DNA of 64,000 nt from Undibacterium pigrum. Its GTDB lineage: Bacteria; Pseudomonadota; Gammaproteobacteria; Burkholderiales; Burkholderiaceae_D. The stretch lies in assembly GCF_003201815.1 (NCBI RefSeq), contig NZ_QJKB01000001.1, positions 1,240,001-1,304,000 on the forward strand, written 5' to 3'. A program made the position numbers and the translations under genes. The notes below the pieces were generated by a model. It saw only the letters and a program-made list of their open reading frames with translations. It was not told where the DNA came from and did not search any database. Shown piece after piece: positions 16,925 through 24,974 of this stretch (position 1 is the first letter of the stretch; each line of letters starts with the position of its first letter).

Positions 16925-17395
16925 TTATAAAAAGCGATCAAGTATCTTACGGCTGTGTTTGTTTATCTCATACATATCACGTATCAAAAATTGTATACCG
17001 TGATTATCGGTAATCAATAAAGAGGTCTTGCCTATGCGGCGTATGTCTTCGTCACCCTTGAGGACAAAATCAGTCTCGCCGCGATCAGTGCTTACTGTCC
17101 ACGTGCATGGCAAGGCAAAGCTGGTGACTCTGAGAATGCTGCTGATCTCAGGCATGAACTCGCGCCCTTCCAGCTCCTCCATGACCAGTTCACGCGCATC
17201 TGCGGCCAGATCATCGAGTTGATCTATCCATGCGACTTCACGACCATCTGTCATGACGAGCGAGATACCCACCAATGGTGACTGGATAGGAAATGCCCGC
17301 ACCGGGCTAACGCCTTCAAATATTTCACCGGCCTCGTTGTTGAGTATCAGTTTGCCGAAAGAATTGCGGGTCAGGGTAAATTTTGTTGTTGTCAT
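16925..17395 (-). CDS. DUF1854 family protein, cyanophycin-locus associated
   Basis: A 156-residue soluble protein of the DUF1854 family, commonly named as cyanophycin-metabolism-associated because it sits beside cphA genes in betaproteobacteria. No biochemical function is known to me. There is no signal peptide or catalytic motif. A segment FPIQSPLVGISLVMTDGRE near residue 35 and an acidic helix DDLAADARELVMEELEGR near 80 are typical. It begins six bases after the ABC transporter stop with a GAGGAG site formed by that gene's last codons, so the two are coupled. It probably works with the transporter. Confidence 0.85.
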   Translation of the reverse strand: MTTTKFTLTRNSFGKLILNNEAGEIFEGVSPVRAFPIQSPLVGISLVMTDGREVAWIDQLDDLAADARELVMEELEGREFMPEISSILRVTSFALPCTWTVSTDRGETDFVLKGDEDIRRIGKTSLLITDNHGIQFLIRDMYEINKHSRKILDRFL

Positions 17396-17401
17396 CTTCT
17401 T

Positions 17402-19657
17402 TTACTCCTCGACCAGTTCTGCGTTACGGGCTTGCGCCTGGTACAGGTTATAGTAAGCACCTTCTTTGGCCATCAATTCATCATGGCTGCCTACTTCCAC
17501 TACCTGGCCTCTGTCCAGTACCACCAGACGGTCGGCTTTGTGCAATGTAGACAACCTATGCGCAATCGCTATTGTGGTACGGCCTTGCACCAGATTATCG
17601 AGCGCTTTCTGGATTTCTTTTTCAGTTTGTGAATCAACGGAAGAAGTCGCTTCATCCATGATCAAAATACGTGGATCAATCAACAAGGCACGGGCAATCG
17701 AGATACGCTGGCGCTCACCGCCAGACAAGCCCTGGCCGCGTTCGCCGACCATGGAGTCATAGCCCTGCGGCAGGCGCAAGATGAATTCATGGGCATGGGC
17801 AGCGCGCGCCGCCGCAATGATTTCATCACGAGTCGCGCCTGGCTTGCCGTAGGCTATATTTTCAGCAATGGTGCCAAAGAACAGGAAAGGCTCCTGCAAG
17901 ACCAGGCCGATATTTTGGCGGTAATCCGACACAGCAAATGAGCGTATATCAACACCATCCAGCAAGATCGCACCCTCCGAGACATCATAGAAGCGGCATA
18001 TCAGGTTCACCAGCGTACTCTTACCTGAGCCGCTATGACCAACCAGACCTATCATTTCACCTGGTTTGATGTTCAGGTTGATACCACGGTTGACGGCACG
18101 GTTACCGTAGCGAAAGCCCACTTCACGCAACTCTATCTGGCCTTTGACTTCTTTTACTTTCACAGGGTTTTGCGGATCAGGCACGCTTGATACATGGTCA
18201 AGAATATCGAAAATACGCTTGGCAGCCGAAGCAGATTTCTGCGTCACGGACACGATACGACTCATGGAATCAATACGGCCATAAAAGTTACTGATGAAAG
18301 CCACTGCAGCCACCAGCGAACCAACGGTAATATCACCCTTGGAAATCTGCCAGATACCAAAGCCCCAGACCACCAGAATACCGAGATCCGTCAGGAATGA
18401 TACCGTCGGTGAAAACAGCGACCAGACCTTGTTGAGCTTGTCGTTGACCGCCAGATTATGCTTGTTGGCTTCGCGGAAGCGTCCTGCTTCGCGCTTTTCC
18501 TGGGCAAAAGCCTTGACCACACGTATGCCAGGGATGGTATCGGCCAGGACATTGGTGACCTCACCCCATACCCTGTCTATCTTTTCAAAACCAGTACGCA
18601 ACTTGTCACGCACCAAATGGATCATCCAGGCAATGAATGGCAGTGGCAGCAAAGTCACCAGGGCCAGCTTGGTATTGATCTGTAACAGGAAACCGGCGGT
18701 CATAATGAACATCAATACGTCAGTTGCAAAGTCCAGCAGATGCAGGGATAAGTAAACGCAAATGCGGTCACTTTCACTGCCTATACGCGACATCAGGTCA
18801 CCGGTGCGTTTGCCACCAAAATATTCGAGAGACAATTTCAGCAAATGCTCATAGGTAGCAGTACGCAAATCGGCGCCTATGCGCTCTGACACCAGCGCCA
18901 GGATATACGTCTTGCCCCAGCTCAGCAGCCATGCAACAACCGCAGAACCGAGCAGGCCGCCAATGTAAAACACCACCAGCTTGGGGTCGACATAGGTACC
19001 GTTTTGATAAGGAATCAGCACCTCATCCGTCAGCGGTTTGGTCAGATAACGCGGGATCATATGCGCAGCAGTGCCCAGCAACATCAGCGAGAAGCCGATG
19101 AACAATTGCAAGCGGTAAGGATGAGCAAAACGCCACAGGCGCAACAAAGTCCAAGTCGATGGCGGCGTGTAAGTGACCTTGGTGCACACCGGGCATTCTT
19201 CCTGGTCCGGCTCCAGTACGGCTTTACAGCTAGGACAGATATTTTGTTCAGCACGAACTACCGGCATGCCCGTCACATGGCTGAGTAACTGTTCCTTGAA
19301 GTGGTCCAGCAGGCGTATGGCATGCAAATTCTGGCCCAGGGTAAAGCGCCAGCTAGCCTGCAAGCCCTGCTCATCCACCAGCTCCAGATGGCCAACACCT
19401 GCATGGTCATGATGACTTAATTGCAAACCCTGGCGGAAACGCCATTCTTTCCAGTCAGATTCGCCTGGTGACTTGGTCAGCAGGCGCTGCTCTGTCACAA
19501 CCAGCAAGCCCTTGCGGAAGCGAAGTTTGTTGTCGAGGTCAACCTCCAGGGCAGCTAAAACGTTCTCGCCCTTGGCGATCTGACTATTGAGGTCAGACTG
19601 CCAGGATACTGGAAGTGATGTAACAGGCTGTTCGGGGCTGAATTGTGTTGTGGTCAT
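17402..19657 (-). CDS. ABC exporter with N-terminal PH-like domain and zinc ribbon, cyanophycin-locus associated
   Basis: A 751-residue half-transporter of the exporter type. Layout: residues 1-135 a soluble domain resembling bacterial PH folds (GENVLAALEVDLD, LLVVTEQRLL); 141-158 a zinc ribbon with Cys141, Cys144, Cys155 and Cys158; about 170-460 six membrane helices; then the ATPase with Walker A GHSGSGKST, signature LSGGERQR, Walker B ILIMDEATSS and the H-loop AIAHRLS. It is divergent from two cphA genes and coupled to a DUF1854 gene. The transported substrate is not known. Arginine, aspartate or beta-Asp-Arg dipeptide are guesses from context. It presumably acts as a homodimer in the inner membrane. 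Confidence 0.88.
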   Translation of the reverse strand: MTTTQFSPEQPVTSLPVSWQSDLNSQIAKGENVLAALEVDLDNKLRFRKGLLVVTEQRLLTKSPGESDWKEWRFRQGLQLSHHDHAGVGHLELVDEQGLQASWRFTLGQNLHAIRLLDHFKEQLLSHVTGMPVVRAEQNICPSCKAVLEPDQEECPVCTKVTYTPPSTWTLLRLWRFAHPYRLQLFIGFSLMLLGTAAHMIPRYLTKPLTDEVLIPYQNGTYVDPKLVVFYIGGLLGSAVVAWLLSWGKTYILALVSERIGADLRTATYEHLLKLSLEYFGGKRTGDLMSRIGSESDRICVYLSLHLLDFATDVLMFIMTAGFLLQINTKLALVTLLPLPFIAWMIHLVRDKLRTGFEKIDRVWGEVTNVLADTIPGIRVVKAFAQEKREAGRFREANKHNLAVNDKLNKVWSLFSPTVSFLTDLGILVVWGFGIWQISKGDITVGSLVAAVAFISNFYGRIDSMSRIVSVTQKSASAAKRIFDILDHVSSVPDPQNPVKVKEVKGQIELREVGFRYGNRAVNRGINLNIKPGEMIGLVGHSGSGKSTLVNLICRFYDVSEGAILLDGVDIRSFAVSDYRQNIGLVLQEPFLFFGTIAENIAYGKPGATRDEIIAAARAAHAHEFILRLPQGYDSMVGERGQGLSGGERQRISIARALLIDPRILIMDEATSSVDSQTEKEIQKALDNLVQGRTTIAIAHRLSTLHKADRLVVLDRGQVVEVGSHDELMAKEGAYYNLYQAQARNAELVEE

Positions 19658-20052: not shown

Positions 20053-22230
20053 ATGACAACAAACAAGAAAGACATCCGCATTCTCAGCGCAACGCACTTG
20101 CGTGGCCCGAATATCTGGACTTACCGCCCTGTCATTGAAGCAGTGCTGGATATTGGTGCGCTGGAAGAGTTTCCATCCAATAAAATTCCTGGCCTGTATG
20201 AAAGACTGACAACCTGGTTGCCGGGCATCATAGAGCATCGCTGTGGTGTCGGAGAGCGTGGCGGATTTCTGGAACGCCTGCGCGAAGGCACCTGGTCTGG
20301 TCATATCCTTGAACATGTTGTACTTGAATTGCAAAACCTGGCGGGCATGCGCACCGGTTTTGGCCAGACACGCTCTACCAATGTGACCGGCGTGTATAAA
20401 ATGGCTTTCCGTACCCGTGAAGAACAGGTAGGACGTGCTGCCCTGCAAATTGGACGCGACTTGCTGATGGCCGCAATTGAAGACCAGCCGTTTGACCTGC
20501 AAGCCAGAGTGACGGAATTGCGTGAACTGGTGGATGACCGCTGCCTGGGCCCAAGTACGGCCAGCATTGTTGATGCCGCCACTGACCGCCGCATCCCGTC
20601 CATACGCCTGACAGATGGCAATCTGGTGCAACTGGGCCATGGAGCAGCGCAGCGCCGTATCTGGACAGCAGAAACTGACCGCACCAGTGCCATTGCTGAA
20701 AGCATTGCCAGCGACAAAGACCTGACCAAGACCTTGCTGCAATCTTGCGGCGTGCCTGTACCAGAAGGCTCATTGGTGCGCAGTGCTGAAGAAGCCTGGG
20801 AAGAAGCACAGGATATCGGCCTACCCGTCGTCATCAAACCTTATGATGGCAACCATGGCCGTGGTGTTTCACTGAACCTGATGAGCAAAGAAGATGTCAT
20901 TGCCGCCTATGAACTGGCGTCCCGCAAGGGCGATAGTAAAAGCGTCATCGTTGAGCGTTTCATCACTGGTGACGAACACCGTGTGCTGGTCGTCGGCAAC
21001 CAGGTCGTTGCAGTTGGCAAAGGTGAATCACTGTGGGTGACTGGCAATGGCAAATCGAATATTACTGAACTGGTCGATGACCAGATCAATACTGACCCAC
21101 GACGTGGTACGACAGAAGACTGCCCTCTGAATGCGCTGGACCCGGCAGCAGGTGCAGAAATCATCCTCGAATTGAAGCGTCAGGGCATGGATGCCAATTC
21201 CATCCCGCTGGCAGGTCAAAAAGTATTGATACAACCGAACGGCAATGTTGCTGTTGATGTGACCGACAAAATCCACCCTGATATTGCCTATGCTGCGACG
21301 CTCGCTGCACGTATCGTTGGCCTGGATATCGCCGGTGTTGATCTGGTGGCAGAAGACATTTCCCGTCCTATGGCAGAACAAGCTGCGGCGATTATTGAAG
21401 TCAATGCCAGTCCGGGCTTGCTGGCCCATATCAAGCCAGCCAATGGCGAAGGCCGCCCGGTTGGCAAGGCCATCATCAATCATTTGTTTGCGCCTGAGGA
21501 AAGTGGCCGCATCAGTATCGTTGGCGTCGCTGGCACCAAAGGTTGCAGCCTGATTGCACGCCTGATCGGTGCCCTGATTAATATCAGCGGCAAAGAAACC
21601 GGCGTCGCTTGCGCCCAGGGCCTGTTCCTGAACAAACGCCTGGTCACCGATGGCGATTGCGCCAACTGGGAAGCAGGCCAAAGACTGCTGATTAACCGTT
21701 CTGTAGAAGCTGCCGTATTTGAAACCAATGCCAGGGCCATGCTCAGCGATGGTCTGGCCTATGACAAATGCGCGGTGGGTGTTGTCACCGATCTGGATGG
21801 TCATGCCGACCTGGGCGCTTATTACATAGACAGTCCGGACCAGATGCGCAAAGTCTTGCGTACCCAGGTTGATGTAATTTTGCCTGACGGCGTCGCGGTA
21901 TTGAATGCTGCAGACCCTGCCGTGGCAGACCTGGCAGAACTCTGCGATGGCAAAGTGATTTTTTATGGCAAGGACCCGTTGCTCGAAGCCATAGTCAATC
22001 ACCGCGCCTTGGGTGAACGTGTGGTGTTTTTGCGTGACGATAATATCGTGCTGGCAGATGGCGAGACTGAAACCGCCCTGCTGCCCCTGAGCGCCTTGAA
22101 ACCTGCAAAAGTCGCCCAGGCAGAAAGTGTACTGGCAGCAGTTGCAGCAGCATGGGCCCTGAACATTACGCCAGAACTGATCGGCGCTGGCCTCAGGACT
22201 TTTGACTCAAGCAAGAAAGCTCCCTACTGA
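20053..22230 (+). CDS. Cyanophycin synthetase-like protein, C-terminally short (CphA2/CphA-prime type)
   Basis: A 725-residue relative of cyanophycin synthetase. Residues 1-160 are a well-conserved N-domain with His84, Glu87, His88 and Glu92 in SGHILEHVVLELQ. About 215-480 is an ATP-grasp domain ending with EVNASPGLLAHIKPANGEG. The Mur-ligase-like domain follows but is degenerate: the expected GTNGKTT P-loop reads GTKGCS (residues 494-499), and the protein stops where the Mur ligase C-terminal domain should start. Arginine addition is therefore unlikely. Cyanobacterial CphA2, which joins ready-made beta-Asp-Arg units with its ATP-grasp site, is the nearest described logic. A full synthetase follows 173 bases downstream. 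Confidence 0.85.
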   Translation: MTTNKKDIRILSATHLRGPNIWTYRPVIEAVLDIGALEEFPSNKIPGLYERLTTWLPGIIEHRCGVGERGGFLERLREGTWSGHILEHVVLELQNLAGMRTGFGQTRSTNVTGVYKMAFRTREEQVGRAALQIGRDLLMAAIEDQPFDLQARVTELRELVDDRCLGPSTASIVDAATDRRIPSIRLTDGNLVQLGHGAAQRRIWTAETDRTSAIAESIASDKDLTKTLLQSCGVPVPEGSLVRSAEEAWEEAQDIGLPVVIKPYDGNHGRGVSLNLMSKEDVIAAYELASRKGDSKSVIVERFITGDEHRVLVVGNQVVAVGKGESLWVTGNGKSNITELVDDQINTDPRRGTTEDCPLNALDPAAGAEIILELKRQGMDANSIPLAGQKVLIQPNGNVAVDVTDKIHPDIAYAATLAARIVGLDIAGVDLVAEDISRPMAEQAAAIIEVNASPGLLAHIKPANGEGRPVGKAIINHLFAPEESGRISIVGVAGTKGCSLIARLIGALINISGKETGVACAQGLFLNKRLVTDGDCANWEAGQRLLINRSVEAAVFETNARAMLSDGLAYDKCAVGVVTDLDGHADLGAYYIDSPDQMRKVLRTQVDVILPDGVAVLNAADPAVADLAELCDGKVIFYGKDPLLEAIVNHRALGERVVFLRDDNIVLADGETETALLPLSALKPAKVAQAESVLAAVAAAWALNITPELIGAGLRTFDSSKKAPY

Positions 22231-22403
22231 TTGCTTTAAGCATAGTGCGGATGTCAAATCTGGCCTCCGCACAAATACAAGATATATTGTTTACTCTTAG
22301 AATTTGCTATTTATCTGATGGTGTGATTTCTGGTGCTTGCATGCTCAGGCTGTAAAAATCAGTACACCCTCGTTTGACGCCCTTTTCAACAGGATTAAGT
22401 TTT

Positions 22404-24974
22404 ATGGAAGTATCACGCATCCGTGCCCTGCGCGGTCCCAATCTCTGGAGCCACCATACGGCCGTAGAAGCGATTGTTGCCTGCACAAATGAAGAGATGT
22501 CAATTGCTGGCCTGAACGGCTTTGAAGACCGTTTGCGCGCCCTGTTCCCGCAACTCAGTATTTTGCAACCGACGGGCCATGATGATGCCATCCCCATGGC
22601 TCACGTATTTGAATTGCTGACTCTGGGCCTGCAGGCAGAAGCCGGTTGCCCGGTCACCTTCAGCCGCACTACGCAAACCCTGGAAGCAGGTATTTTCCAG
22701 GTCGTGGTTGAATACTCGGAAGAAGCTGTAGGTCGTCTGGCAGTAGAACTGGCTGAAAAAATCATCAATGCTGCACTGAAAGACCAGGCTTTTGACCTGG
22801 CTGCTGCACTTGAACAATTGCGTGATCTGGATGAAGACGTGCGCCTGGGGCCATCTACCGGTTCCATCGTGAATGCCGCTGTCGCACGCAATATCCCTTA
22901 CCGCCGCCTGACCGATGGCAGCCTTGTTGCCTTTGGCTGGGGTAGCCGCCAGCGCAAAATACAGGCAGCAGAAATGGATGGCACCAGCGCCATTGCTGAA
23001 GCCATTGCACAAGATAAAGAACTGACCAAGAAGCTCTTGCATGCTGCTGGTGTGCCTGTGCCTTTGGGCCGCTCAGTCTCCGACCCGGATGATGCCTGGG
23101 CAGCCGCTCTTGAAATCGGCCTGCCTGTTGTGGTCAAACCCAAGGATGGCAATCAGGGCAAAGGCGTGACAGTCAATGTCACAACACGTGAGCAACTGGA
23201 TGCAGGCTTCCATGCCGCCAGCGAATTCCGCGACGACATTCTGGTTGAGCGCTTCTTGCCAGGCAATGATTTCCGCCTGCTGGTAGTCGGTAACAAGCTG
23301 GTTGCCGCTGCCCGCCGTGACCCGCCGCAAGTGGTGGGCGATGGCAAGCAAAGCGTGCGTGAACTGGTTGAGCAAGTCAATAAAGACCCGCGTCGCGGCA
23401 GTGGCCACTCCACTTCCCTGACCAAGATACGGTTTGACGATATCGCTCTGGCCAGCCTGGCAAAACAAGGCTTTGTGGCTGACTCCATCCCGCCAAAAGG
23501 CCAGCGCGTGGTATTGCGCAATAATGCCAATCTCTCTACTGGTGGCGCAGCAACCGATGTGACAGATGATGTGCATCCTGAAGTTGCTGCCCGCGCAGTG
23601 GCAGCAGCGCAAATGGTGGGCCTGGACATCTGTGGTGTTGATCTGGTCTGCGACAGTGTCTTGAAACCGATAGAACAGCAAAATGGCGGCATCGTTGAAG
23701 TCAATGCTGCGCCAGGTTTGCGTATGCATCTCTCCCCTTCCTTTGGCAAAGGTCGCCAGGTTGGTGAAGCGATTATCGCTTCAATGTTTGATGATAATGA
23801 CGATGGCCGCATCCCTATCATCGCAGTCACCGGCACGAATGGCAAAACCACGACAGTACGTCTGATTGCCCATCTGCTGACAGCCAGCGGCTTGCGTACA
23901 GGCATGACCAATACGGATGGCGTCTATGTTGCAGGCCGCCAGATTGATAGCGGTGATTGCAGCGGCCCGCGCAGCGCCCGCAATGTCTTGTCCCACCCAG
24001 ATGTCGATGCAGCCGTATTTGAAACTGCACGCGGTGGTGTCTTGCGTGAGGGCTTGGCCTATGACCGTTGCCAGGTGGCTGTCGTCACAAATATCGGTTC
24101 CGGTGATCACCTTGGCCTGAACTACATCACCACGGTAGAAGACCTGGCTGTATTGAAACGCGTCATCGTACAAAACGTTGCTGATAACGGCTATGCCGTG
24201 CTGAATGCGGCTGACCCTATCGTCGCAGCCATGGCCAGCAATTGCCCATCTGCCGTGATCTTCTTTGCTGCGGACCATCAGCACCCTGTCATGGCCACCC
24301 ACAGGGCCCAGGGCAAGCGTGTAGTGTATATAGAAAACGGCCATCTGATTGCCGCAGAAGGCAAGACACGTCATAGCGTGCCGCTGGCGGATATCCCTAT
24401 CACCCGCAATGGCAGCATAGGCTTCCAGGTCGAGAACGTCATGGCATCCGTAGCCGCAGCCTGGGCAATCAATATTGACTGGGACAGCATACGCGCAGGC
24501 TTATTGTCCTTTGCCAATGAGGCCGACAATGCGCCTGGCCGCTTCAATGTCTTCAACTTCCGTGGTGCAACCCTGATTGCTGACTATGGCCACAACCCGG
24601 ATGCGATACTGGCATTGGTGCGCGCAGTAGAAACCATGCCTGCCAAACGCCGCTCTGTCGTCATCAGCGGTGCAGGTGACCGCCGTGACCAGGACATACG
24701 CCAGCAGACTGAAATCCTCGGTGAGTCCTTTGATGACGTGGTGCTGTATCAGGATCAATGCCAGCGTGGCCGTGCCGATGGTGAAGTTGTCGCCCTCTTG
24801 CGTGAAGGCCTGAAGCAGGCAAGCAAAACTTCGCGCATCGATGAAATCAATGGTGAATTCATTGCGATTGATCTGGCCATGGACAGGCTCGAAGCAGGCG
24901 ACCTGTGCCTGATCCTGATTGATCAGGTTGAAGAAGCACTGGCGCATATCGCAAAACGAGTAGCAGCAGGTTAA
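22404..24974 (+). CDS. cphA: Cyanophycin synthetase
   Basis: An 856-residue enzyme that builds the storage polymer multi-L-arginyl-poly-L-aspartate. The ATP-grasp domain (aspartate addition) ends with EVNAAPGLRMHLSPSFGKG. The Mur-ligase domain (arginine addition) has an intact P-loop GTNGKTTTV at about residue 477, DHLGLN near 570 and a full C-terminal domain with ADYGHNPDA. The N-domain is divergent: the HxxEH-x3-E pattern kept in the upstream paralogue is reduced to His67 and Glu70, with Leu71 and Gly75. Start at 22404 (MEVSRIRALRG) is chosen for its AGGA site at 22391 over a start ten codons earlier. No cyanophycinase gene is in view. Confidence 0.93.
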   Translation: MEVSRIRALRGPNLWSHHTAVEAIVACTNEEMSIAGLNGFEDRLRALFPQLSILQPTGHDDAIPMAHVFELLTLGLQAEAGCPVTFSRTTQTLEAGIFQVVVEYSEEAVGRLAVELAEKIINAALKDQAFDLAAALEQLRDLDEDVRLGPSTGSIVNAAVARNIPYRRLTDGSLVAFGWGSRQRKIQAAEMDGTSAIAEAIAQDKELTKKLLHAAGVPVPLGRSVSDPDDAWAAALEIGLPVVVKPKDGNQGKGVTVNVTTREQLDAGFHAASEFRDDILVERFLPGNDFRLLVVGNKLVAAARRDPPQVVGDGKQSVRELVEQVNKDPRRGSGHSTSLTKIRFDDIALASLAKQGFVADSIPPKGQRVVLRNNANLSTGGAATDVTDDVHPEVAARAVAAAQMVGLDICGVDLVCDSVLKPIEQQNGGIVEVNAAPGLRMHLSPSFGKGRQVGEAIIASMFDDNDDGRIPIIAVTGTNGKTTTVRLIAHLLTASGLRTGMTNTDGVYVAGRQIDSGDCSGPRSARNVLSHPDVDAAVFETARGGVLREGLAYDRCQVAVVTNIGSGDHLGLNYITTVEDLAVLKRVIVQNVADNGYAVLNAADPIVAAMASNCPSAVIFFAADHQHPVMATHRAQGKRVVYIENGHLIAAEGKTRHSVPLADIPITRNGSIGFQVENVMASVAAAWAINIDWDSIRAGLLSFANEADNAPGRFNVFNFRGATLIADYGHNPDAILALVRAVETMPAKRRSVVISGAGDRRDQDIRQQTEILGESFDDVVLYQDQCQRGRADGEVVALLREGLKQASKTSRIDEINGEFIAIDLAMDRLEAGDLCLILIDQVEEALAHIAKRVAAG

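Follow-up and report, generated by a model that had tools for sequence, protein, structure and literature searches.

A tandem pair of cyanophycin synthetase paralogues in Undibacterium and its relatives with reciprocally retained hydrolase and ligase residues

Cyanophycin is a nitrogen-storage polymer made by an enzyme that normally comes in one piece. Why, then, does an Undibacterium genome of about 6.4 Mb carry two adjacent genes for it, each of which seems to encode an incomplete enzyme? The pair lies in the window (G000:C1:1240001-1304000, the whole 64,000-nucleotide stretch analysed), whose closest named relatives are Undibacterium, the product of the first gene, CphA', being 95% identical to that of U. 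umbellatum. As the preliminary description had it, two tandem genes are present, and both open reading frames are intact, on the same strand and separated by 173 bp. A search of the genome returned CphA' and CphA as its only full-length cyanophycin-synthetase-like genes, together with three further matches that are partial and 26-30% identical. The genes and their neighbours are as follows.

16925..17395, - strand: neighbouring gene for a cyanophycin metabolism-associated DUF1854 protein (NF052234, 223.5 bits, cut-off 150)
17402..19657, - strand: divergent neighbouring gene for a cyanophycin metabolism-associated ABC transporter (NF052233, 1389 bits, cut-off 880)
20053..22230, + strand: cphA' (CphA-prime; P0001), 725 aa; endo-cyanophycinase site of the N domain intact, aspartate site missing from the G domain, M domain degenerate and lacking the C-terminal lobe
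22404..24974, + strand: cphA (P0002), 856 aa, full-length synthetase; aspartate and arginine sites intact, N-domain hydrolase dead

The ABC transporter and DUF1854 genes lie upstream of cphA' and divergent from it, both under the NCBIfam name "cyanophycin metabolism-associated". A promoter and terminator scan of the window gave signals no more frequent than chance, so spacing is the only guide to operon structure here.

The N-, G- and M-domain residues of the window proteins were located through alignments with solved CphA1 and scored in 184 non-identical pairs, i.e. the window and 183 loci with both genes complete, of which 68 are genome contigs of named relatives and 115 come from sampled genomes (113 belonging to the window's order and two, L262 and L263, to a family outside it). 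Pairs were merged only when their CphA' sequences were identical; one species may count twice, and relatives are not independent. Dropped before this count were L264 and 45 loci with CphA' but without a complete CphA, namely 29 short stretches (21 of whose genomes re-entered as whole loci and eight did not), 12 named contigs and three other stretches whose ends fall within or short of CphA, and L191; L295-L298 and G383 stand outside the scored set. In the sample of the window's order, 131 genomes have a listed CphA' row and 114 were scored, the window's included. The CphA frame of L191 (G011) and the CphA' frame of L264 (G489; 660 aa, N motif kept) are interrupted, by a sequencing fault or by real decay. 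The comparison set consists of 21 unpaired full-length CphA1, meaning that no CphA' stands beside the gene and none appears in that genome's list of matches. Their N-domain site was scored by aligned column because the Cx19 spacing is not universal: HxxEH occurs in 21/21, with a Cys-to-His spacing of 19 in five and of 21 in 16. Asn394 of CphA' was left unscored as kept or lost, the alignment being ambiguous at a shortened loop.

In SuCphA1 of Synechocystis UTEX2470, the N domain is a zinc endo-cyanophycinase with ligands C59, H79 and H83, the base E82, and H57, F67, R70 and E87 around them (PMC9262961). The site is described there as making primers: six single mutations in or near it all reduced primer-independent synthesis, R100A excepted, and had little effect on primer-dependent synthesis. 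CphA' has the same site.

20242..20316, + strand: Cx19HxxEH zinc-hydrolase site of CphA' (C64, H84, E87, H88; also H62, F72, R75, E92)

Residues C64, H84, E87 and H88 align to C59, H79, E82 and H83 of SuCphA1, giving P0001 the C-H-H zinc triad and general base that characterize an (inverzincin-like) N-domain endo-cyanophycinase. The equivalents of H57, C59, F67, R70, H79, E82, H83 and E87 are the SuCphA1 residue in 184/184 CphA', and a regular expression for Cx19HxxEH finds the motif in 184/184 CphA' and 0/184 CphA. A predicted model of CphA' (34 sequences; pLDDT 77, pTM 0.58), of moderate quality and too weak for zinc geometry, places H84, E87, H88 and E92 together in a single helix (82-96). 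By homology with the studied enzyme, CphA' probably hydrolyses cyanophycin.

The second protein has the converse set of residues.

22554..22628, + strand: residues 51-75 of CphA, its degenerate N-domain site, which retains H67 and E70 but has L71 instead of His, G75 instead of Glu and no Cys-bearing loop
23154..23156, + strand: Q251 of CphA, at catalytic His267 (Gln in 180/184 CphA)
23832..23855, + strand: intact Mur-ligase P-loop GTNGKTTT of CphA (477-484)

The positions of H57 and C59 are absent from CphA in 184/184, and that of H83 is not His in 178/184; HxxEH is still present in five of the 184, without the Cys. The ligase residues R323, S396, R458, the P-loop Lys, D585 and H586 (the last two being the M-domain residues inactivated in PMC9262961) are kept in 184/184 CphA. 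In the window, CphA carries both Mur ligase Pfam domains and the C-terminal lobe, and has, like the other CphA scored (184/184), all four residues of the aspartate pocket, R323, N394, S396 and R458, described for the G domain together with the catalytic H267 and R309 (PMC9427784). P0002 scores 991.3 bits against the TIGR02068 equivalog (cut-off 850 bits). With Gln at the His267 position, which is His in 21/21 unpaired CphA1, P0002 is called CphA1-like and not proven CphA1. This substitution may mean an altered G domain; GshF, a related ligase, has Tyr or Phe at the same position (PMC9427784). The unpaired CphA1 keep hydrolase, aspartate and arginine sites together in 21/21 (F67 in 20).

In CphA', it is the ligase sites that have changed.

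21022..21024, + strand: G324 of CphA', in place of aspartate-binding Arg323 (Arg lost in 184/184, Gly in 177)
21235..21246, + strand: shortened loop PNGN of CphA' (A-N-L/I-S-x-G-G in CphA1 and CphA2; Ser396 absent)
21421..21423, + strand: L457 of CphA', in place of aspartate-binding Arg458 (Arg lost in 184/184, Leu in 179)
21532..21549, + strand: ruined Mur-ligase P-loop GTKGCS of CphA' (494-499)

Each of the aspartate-adding residues R323, S396 and R458 is found in 0/184 CphA', and the Ser-Thr-Gly-Gly of the loop is absent in 184/184. The window CphA' has no Pfam Mur_ligase_M or Mur_ligase_C match at E 0.001 and no C-terminal lobe. With its aspartate site lost, GTKGCS for an arginine-ligase P-loop and the C-lobe missing, P0001 falls outside CphA1; it scores 707.7 bits, below the 850-bit cut-off of TIGR02068, and 1019.7 bits against the broader subfamily NF010623 (cut-off 877). 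The P-loop Lys is kept in 40/184 CphA', and P-loop Lys, Asp-His and C-lobe are all kept in 11/183 (L150, L159, L161, L167, L170, L171, L174, L176, L181, L197 and L202), in which the aspartate site is absent; these eleven, with what looks like an arginine-ligase site, may be intermediates or CphA' that still add Arg. The ATP core of the CphA' G domain is kept (K220 in 182/183; K261, R309 and N452 in 184/184), as is the equivalent of H267 (His in 179/184); K220 is likewise Lys in 183/183 CphA.

The preliminary description had recorded much of this pattern for the window: H84, E87, H88 and E92 kept in the first protein, its P-loop ruined and its Mur ligase C-terminal domain missing (which both sequence and Pfam bear out), an intact Mur ligase in the second, and an N-domain pattern there that retains H67 and E70 before L71 and G75. 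Its suspicion that the full-length partner is itself incomplete extends to 184/184 CphA, the scoring of N-domain residues across pairs that it had called for revealed a pattern too regular for chance or a one-off, and the residues concerned are catalytic in the studied SuCphA1 (PMC9262961), which speaks against one of the refutations it had named, a residue pattern without a catalytic role. To that account are added C64, H62, F72 and R75 in the first protein, i.e. the full Cx19HxxEH site, the missing Cys-bearing loop in the second, and the loss of the aspartate-binding ATP-grasp residues from the first. Its proposed division of labour finds good support in the sequences, in that the priming site is present in the first protein and lost from the second; however, because aspartate and arginine ligation both map to the second protein, the split is not one of priming versus arginine addition.

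The pattern of change in CphA' differs by domain, the aspartate-site changes being near-uniform and the M-domain site scattered into many letters. Mean identity among CphA' is 0.664 in the N domain, 0.667 in the G domain and 0.475 in the M core, and among CphA 0.615, 0.730 and 0.691, respectively (1500 random comparisons). Within 20 Undibacterium, median dN/dS of CphA' is 0.070 (N), 0.074 (G) and 0.157 (M core) over 42-64 saturation-filtered comparisons, and that of CphA is 0.046-0.077 by domain, which indicates that both genes are under purifying selection. Given the uniform aspartate-site changes, the scattered M site, and the conserved G domain and ATP core, we infer that the aspartate site of CphA' was lost once, early, with the G domain kept for another purpose, and that the M domain disappeared afterwards in many lineages.

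The two genes also travel together. CphA' lies upstream of CphA on the same strand in 183/183 pairs, with a median gap of 41 bp, and in a rapidly built tree of 73 G-domain rows, drawn from the window pair, 25 of the other 183 pairs and the 21 unpaired CphA1, CphA', CphA and unpaired CphA1 each occupy one side of a branch (SH-aLRT 100, 95 and 96). Four genomes of the order sample have CphA alone as best match: G172 and G337 contain broken CphA' pieces, in G287 CphA stands at a contig start, and in G358 (L294, G358:C131; a draft, 87% complete) CphA has no CphA' in the 2.4 kb upstream, by loss or assembly fault. At the unpaired loci L117-L119, L122, L124-L126, L267, L268, L275 and L276, a separate second Mur-ligase-like frame (about 560-720 aa where complete) adjoins CphA1, in genomes that also have cyanophycinase; none was seen in stretches L116, L120, L121 and L123. 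L277 (G136) encodes a CphA-like protein that is full-length but divergent (34% identity to CphA), on a contig with several further ATP-grasp-like frames, where a different polymer may be made.

We consider it probable that the two co-encoded paralogues share between them the work of a single cyanophycin synthetase, CphA' making primers and CphA building the polymer. CphA would add Asp through its G domain and Arg through its M domain, would be unable to cleave the polymer, and should for that reason be primer-dependent; CphA' would be unable to add Asp and usually unable to add Arg. CphA would make a little polymer, the zinc endo-cyanophycinase of the CphA' N domain would cut it into short pieces, and these would prime CphA in trans, the two proteins probably sharing a mixed oligomer. 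What the sequences themselves show is that sites are reciprocally kept and lost, that order and strand are fixed, that both genes are under purifying selection and that each forms one grouping on the tree; cleavage by CphA' is deduced from homology, and a primer need of CphA in the cell and CphA'-CphA contact in mixed oligomers are suppositions. Whereas SuCphA1 has its three sites in one chain, the pair, which shares its three domains, has the hydrolase residues in CphA' and the ligase residues, except H267, in CphA. The closest parallel is the N-G+M+/N+G-M- heterodimer of SuCphA1 engineered by Sharon et al. 2022, which synthesized polymer without primer (PMC9262961, Fig. 4). Its live and dead sites are distributed as in the natural pair, which makes a cut-then-prime mechanism the most likely one, although there the sites were removed by point mutations and the dimer was forced by W672A (PMC9262961). 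According to the same study, a ligase-dead SuCphA1 supplied in trans renders a primer-dependent CphA1 primer-independent, as does the isolated N domain with two solubilizing mutations. The primer-dependent CphA1 of Tatumella morbirosei (7lgn) resembles CphA in combining full ligases with an N domain that lacks the hydrolase site (PMC9262961), but it keeps H267 and CphA does not.

Several observations count against this reading. The CphA' G domain is as conserved as the N domain and its ATP core is intact, which is more than would be expected of an inert scaffold carrying a hydrolase. Also to be set against it are the eleven CphA' with an intact-looking arginine-ligase site, the Gln at H267, the five CphA with HxxEH, the CphA of G358 with no CphA' in its upstream 2.4 kb, the moderate quality of the CphA' model, and the engineered heterodimer itself, which was somewhat slower in primer-free synthesis than enzyme with its sites together (PMC9262961). 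In the open-access literature searched we found no report of the activity of either CphA' or CphA.

Tandem cphA genes as such are already known. Accumulibacter has two copies, both evenly expressed (PMC10687191), an adjacent pair in Sideroxydans is labelled CphA1 and CphA2 (PMC5178258), and Herminiimonas has two copies (PMC5670224); those of the first two papers are neighbours, as here. Where these papers treat the copies, they are counted, or labelled CphA1/CphA2, without comparison of active sites, and the CphA1/CphA2 label would not fit a pair of the CphA'/CphA type. A search of open-access papers, subscription literature excluded, gave no report of a reciprocal division of sites in tandem cphA, and within that scope the division appears to be the new part.

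The main alternative is that CphA' serves chiefly to break the polymer down. It would then be the cyanophycinase that these bacteria seem to lack, cutting the store into short pieces for other peptidases to finish, with priming secondary. According to PMC5178258, no cyanophycinase had been detected in Betaproteobacteria, which would point to another route, and Herminiimonas is described as having two synthetase genes and no apparent cyanophycinase (PMC5670224). Our order sample (399 genomes) has 133 genomes with CphA' (the 131 listed rows plus the pieces in G172 and G337) and 11 with unpaired CphA1. A TIGR02069 match over cut-off occurs in 28/399, i.e. in 11/133 with CphA' (G000, G021, G056, G068, G102, G213, G269, G298, G308, G354 and G380), 11/11 with unpaired CphA1 and six with neither; in the class sample, cyanophycinase occurs at 0/3 pairs (one being G489, with its interrupted CphA') and 11/11 unpaired. 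The contrast (Fisher p 7.5e-11 in the order sample, uncorrected for kinship or genome completeness) is suggestive and not independent evidence, because the unpaired genomes represent no more than eight families and completeness is uncorrected. With its hydrolase site kept and cyanophycinase so unevenly distributed, CphA' becomes a candidate for two roles, as primer-maker and as the depolymerase missing from Betaproteobacteria. The window genome has an isoaspartyl-dipeptidase-type gene (PF01112), but it also has its own TIGR02069 protein over cut-off (a 455-aa frame), which makes it a less than ideal strain for testing this question, and counting weaker TIGR02069 matches (E to 0.001) raises the CphA' genomes with both to 20/133. 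Moreover, the N domain of SuCphA1 works slowly and releases mostly tetramers, whereas a dipeptidase would require dipeptides (PMC9262961), and Tetrasphaera has two cphA copies in series with cphB beside them (PMC10687191), which would count against this reading if those copies are of the CphA'/CphA type. A primarily degradative role for CphA' is a tentative possibility, on balance somewhat unlikely.

The conservation of both G domains under strong selection invites the idea that they form an obligate mixed unit in which neither protein adds Asp alone: CphA' retains H267 and ATP binding, its aspartate pocket being lost, CphA has the pocket but Gln at H267, and the reciprocal differences are near-fixed (H268 vs Q251, G324 vs R305 and L457 vs R440, in CphA' and CphA, respectively). 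All of these residues belong, however, to one ATP-grasp site, and since GshF has Tyr or Phe at the H267 position (PMC9427784), Gln may simply work, making such a unit improbable. The ATP core, together with the dead M domain and the shortened C-terminus without its lobe, also recalls CphA2 (7ta5 of Gloeothece citriformis and 8fxh of Stanieria), and CphA' might, on that likeness, repolymerize beta-Asp-Arg dipeptides through its G domain; CphA2 structures do match the CphA' model, and the Sideroxydans pair was named CphA1 and CphA2 (PMC5178258). Yet both solved CphA2 keep R309, R323 and the A-N-x-S-x-G-G loop (the alignment ends before R458), the last two of which CphA' has lost, CphA2 is described as lacking the N-domain motif (PMC9262961) that is present in 184/184 CphA', and the model is closer to CphA1 structures than to those of CphA2 (best E 1.2e-60 vs 3.9e-34). 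On the loop and the motif we reject both the assignment of P0001 to CphA2 and a CphA2-like function, which we regard as very improbable; the pair indeed departs from the CphA2 logic, as had been suspected at the outset. The idea that CphA' is a duplicate in decay, adding nothing to the role of its partner, is hardly credible: the M domain is degenerating in many CphA' lineages and the L264 frame is interrupted, but a median dN/dS of 0.07 in its N and G domains, N-domain residues fixed in 184/184 and an upstream position in 183/183 led us to reject decay.

Priming and breakdown might also be joined in one protein. More speculatively, and with a rather low expectation of being right, we suggest that CphA' could be a dedicated hydrolase derived from a synthetase, which would have replaced the classical cyanophycinase across one large group, supplying primers when nitrogen is plentiful and initiating breakdown of the polymer in scarcity, with the re-tooled G domain, which has an ATP core and no amino-acid pocket, sensing ATP or polymer ends and so setting the balance.

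If the division of one synthetase between CphA' and CphA is real, the pair would be the natural counterpart of an engineered enzyme split and a clear example of gene duplication followed by the partition of a multifunctional polymerase; to our knowledge, a split of this kind was known before only as an engineered heterodimer. It predicts that polymer production from the second gene alone would be limited by primer, and that co-expression of the first gene should help. It would also offer testable answers to the questions of why many non-cyanobacterial genomes have two adjacent cphA genes, and of how Betaproteobacteria without a recognizable cyanophycinase could reopen their nitrogen store (PMC5178258).
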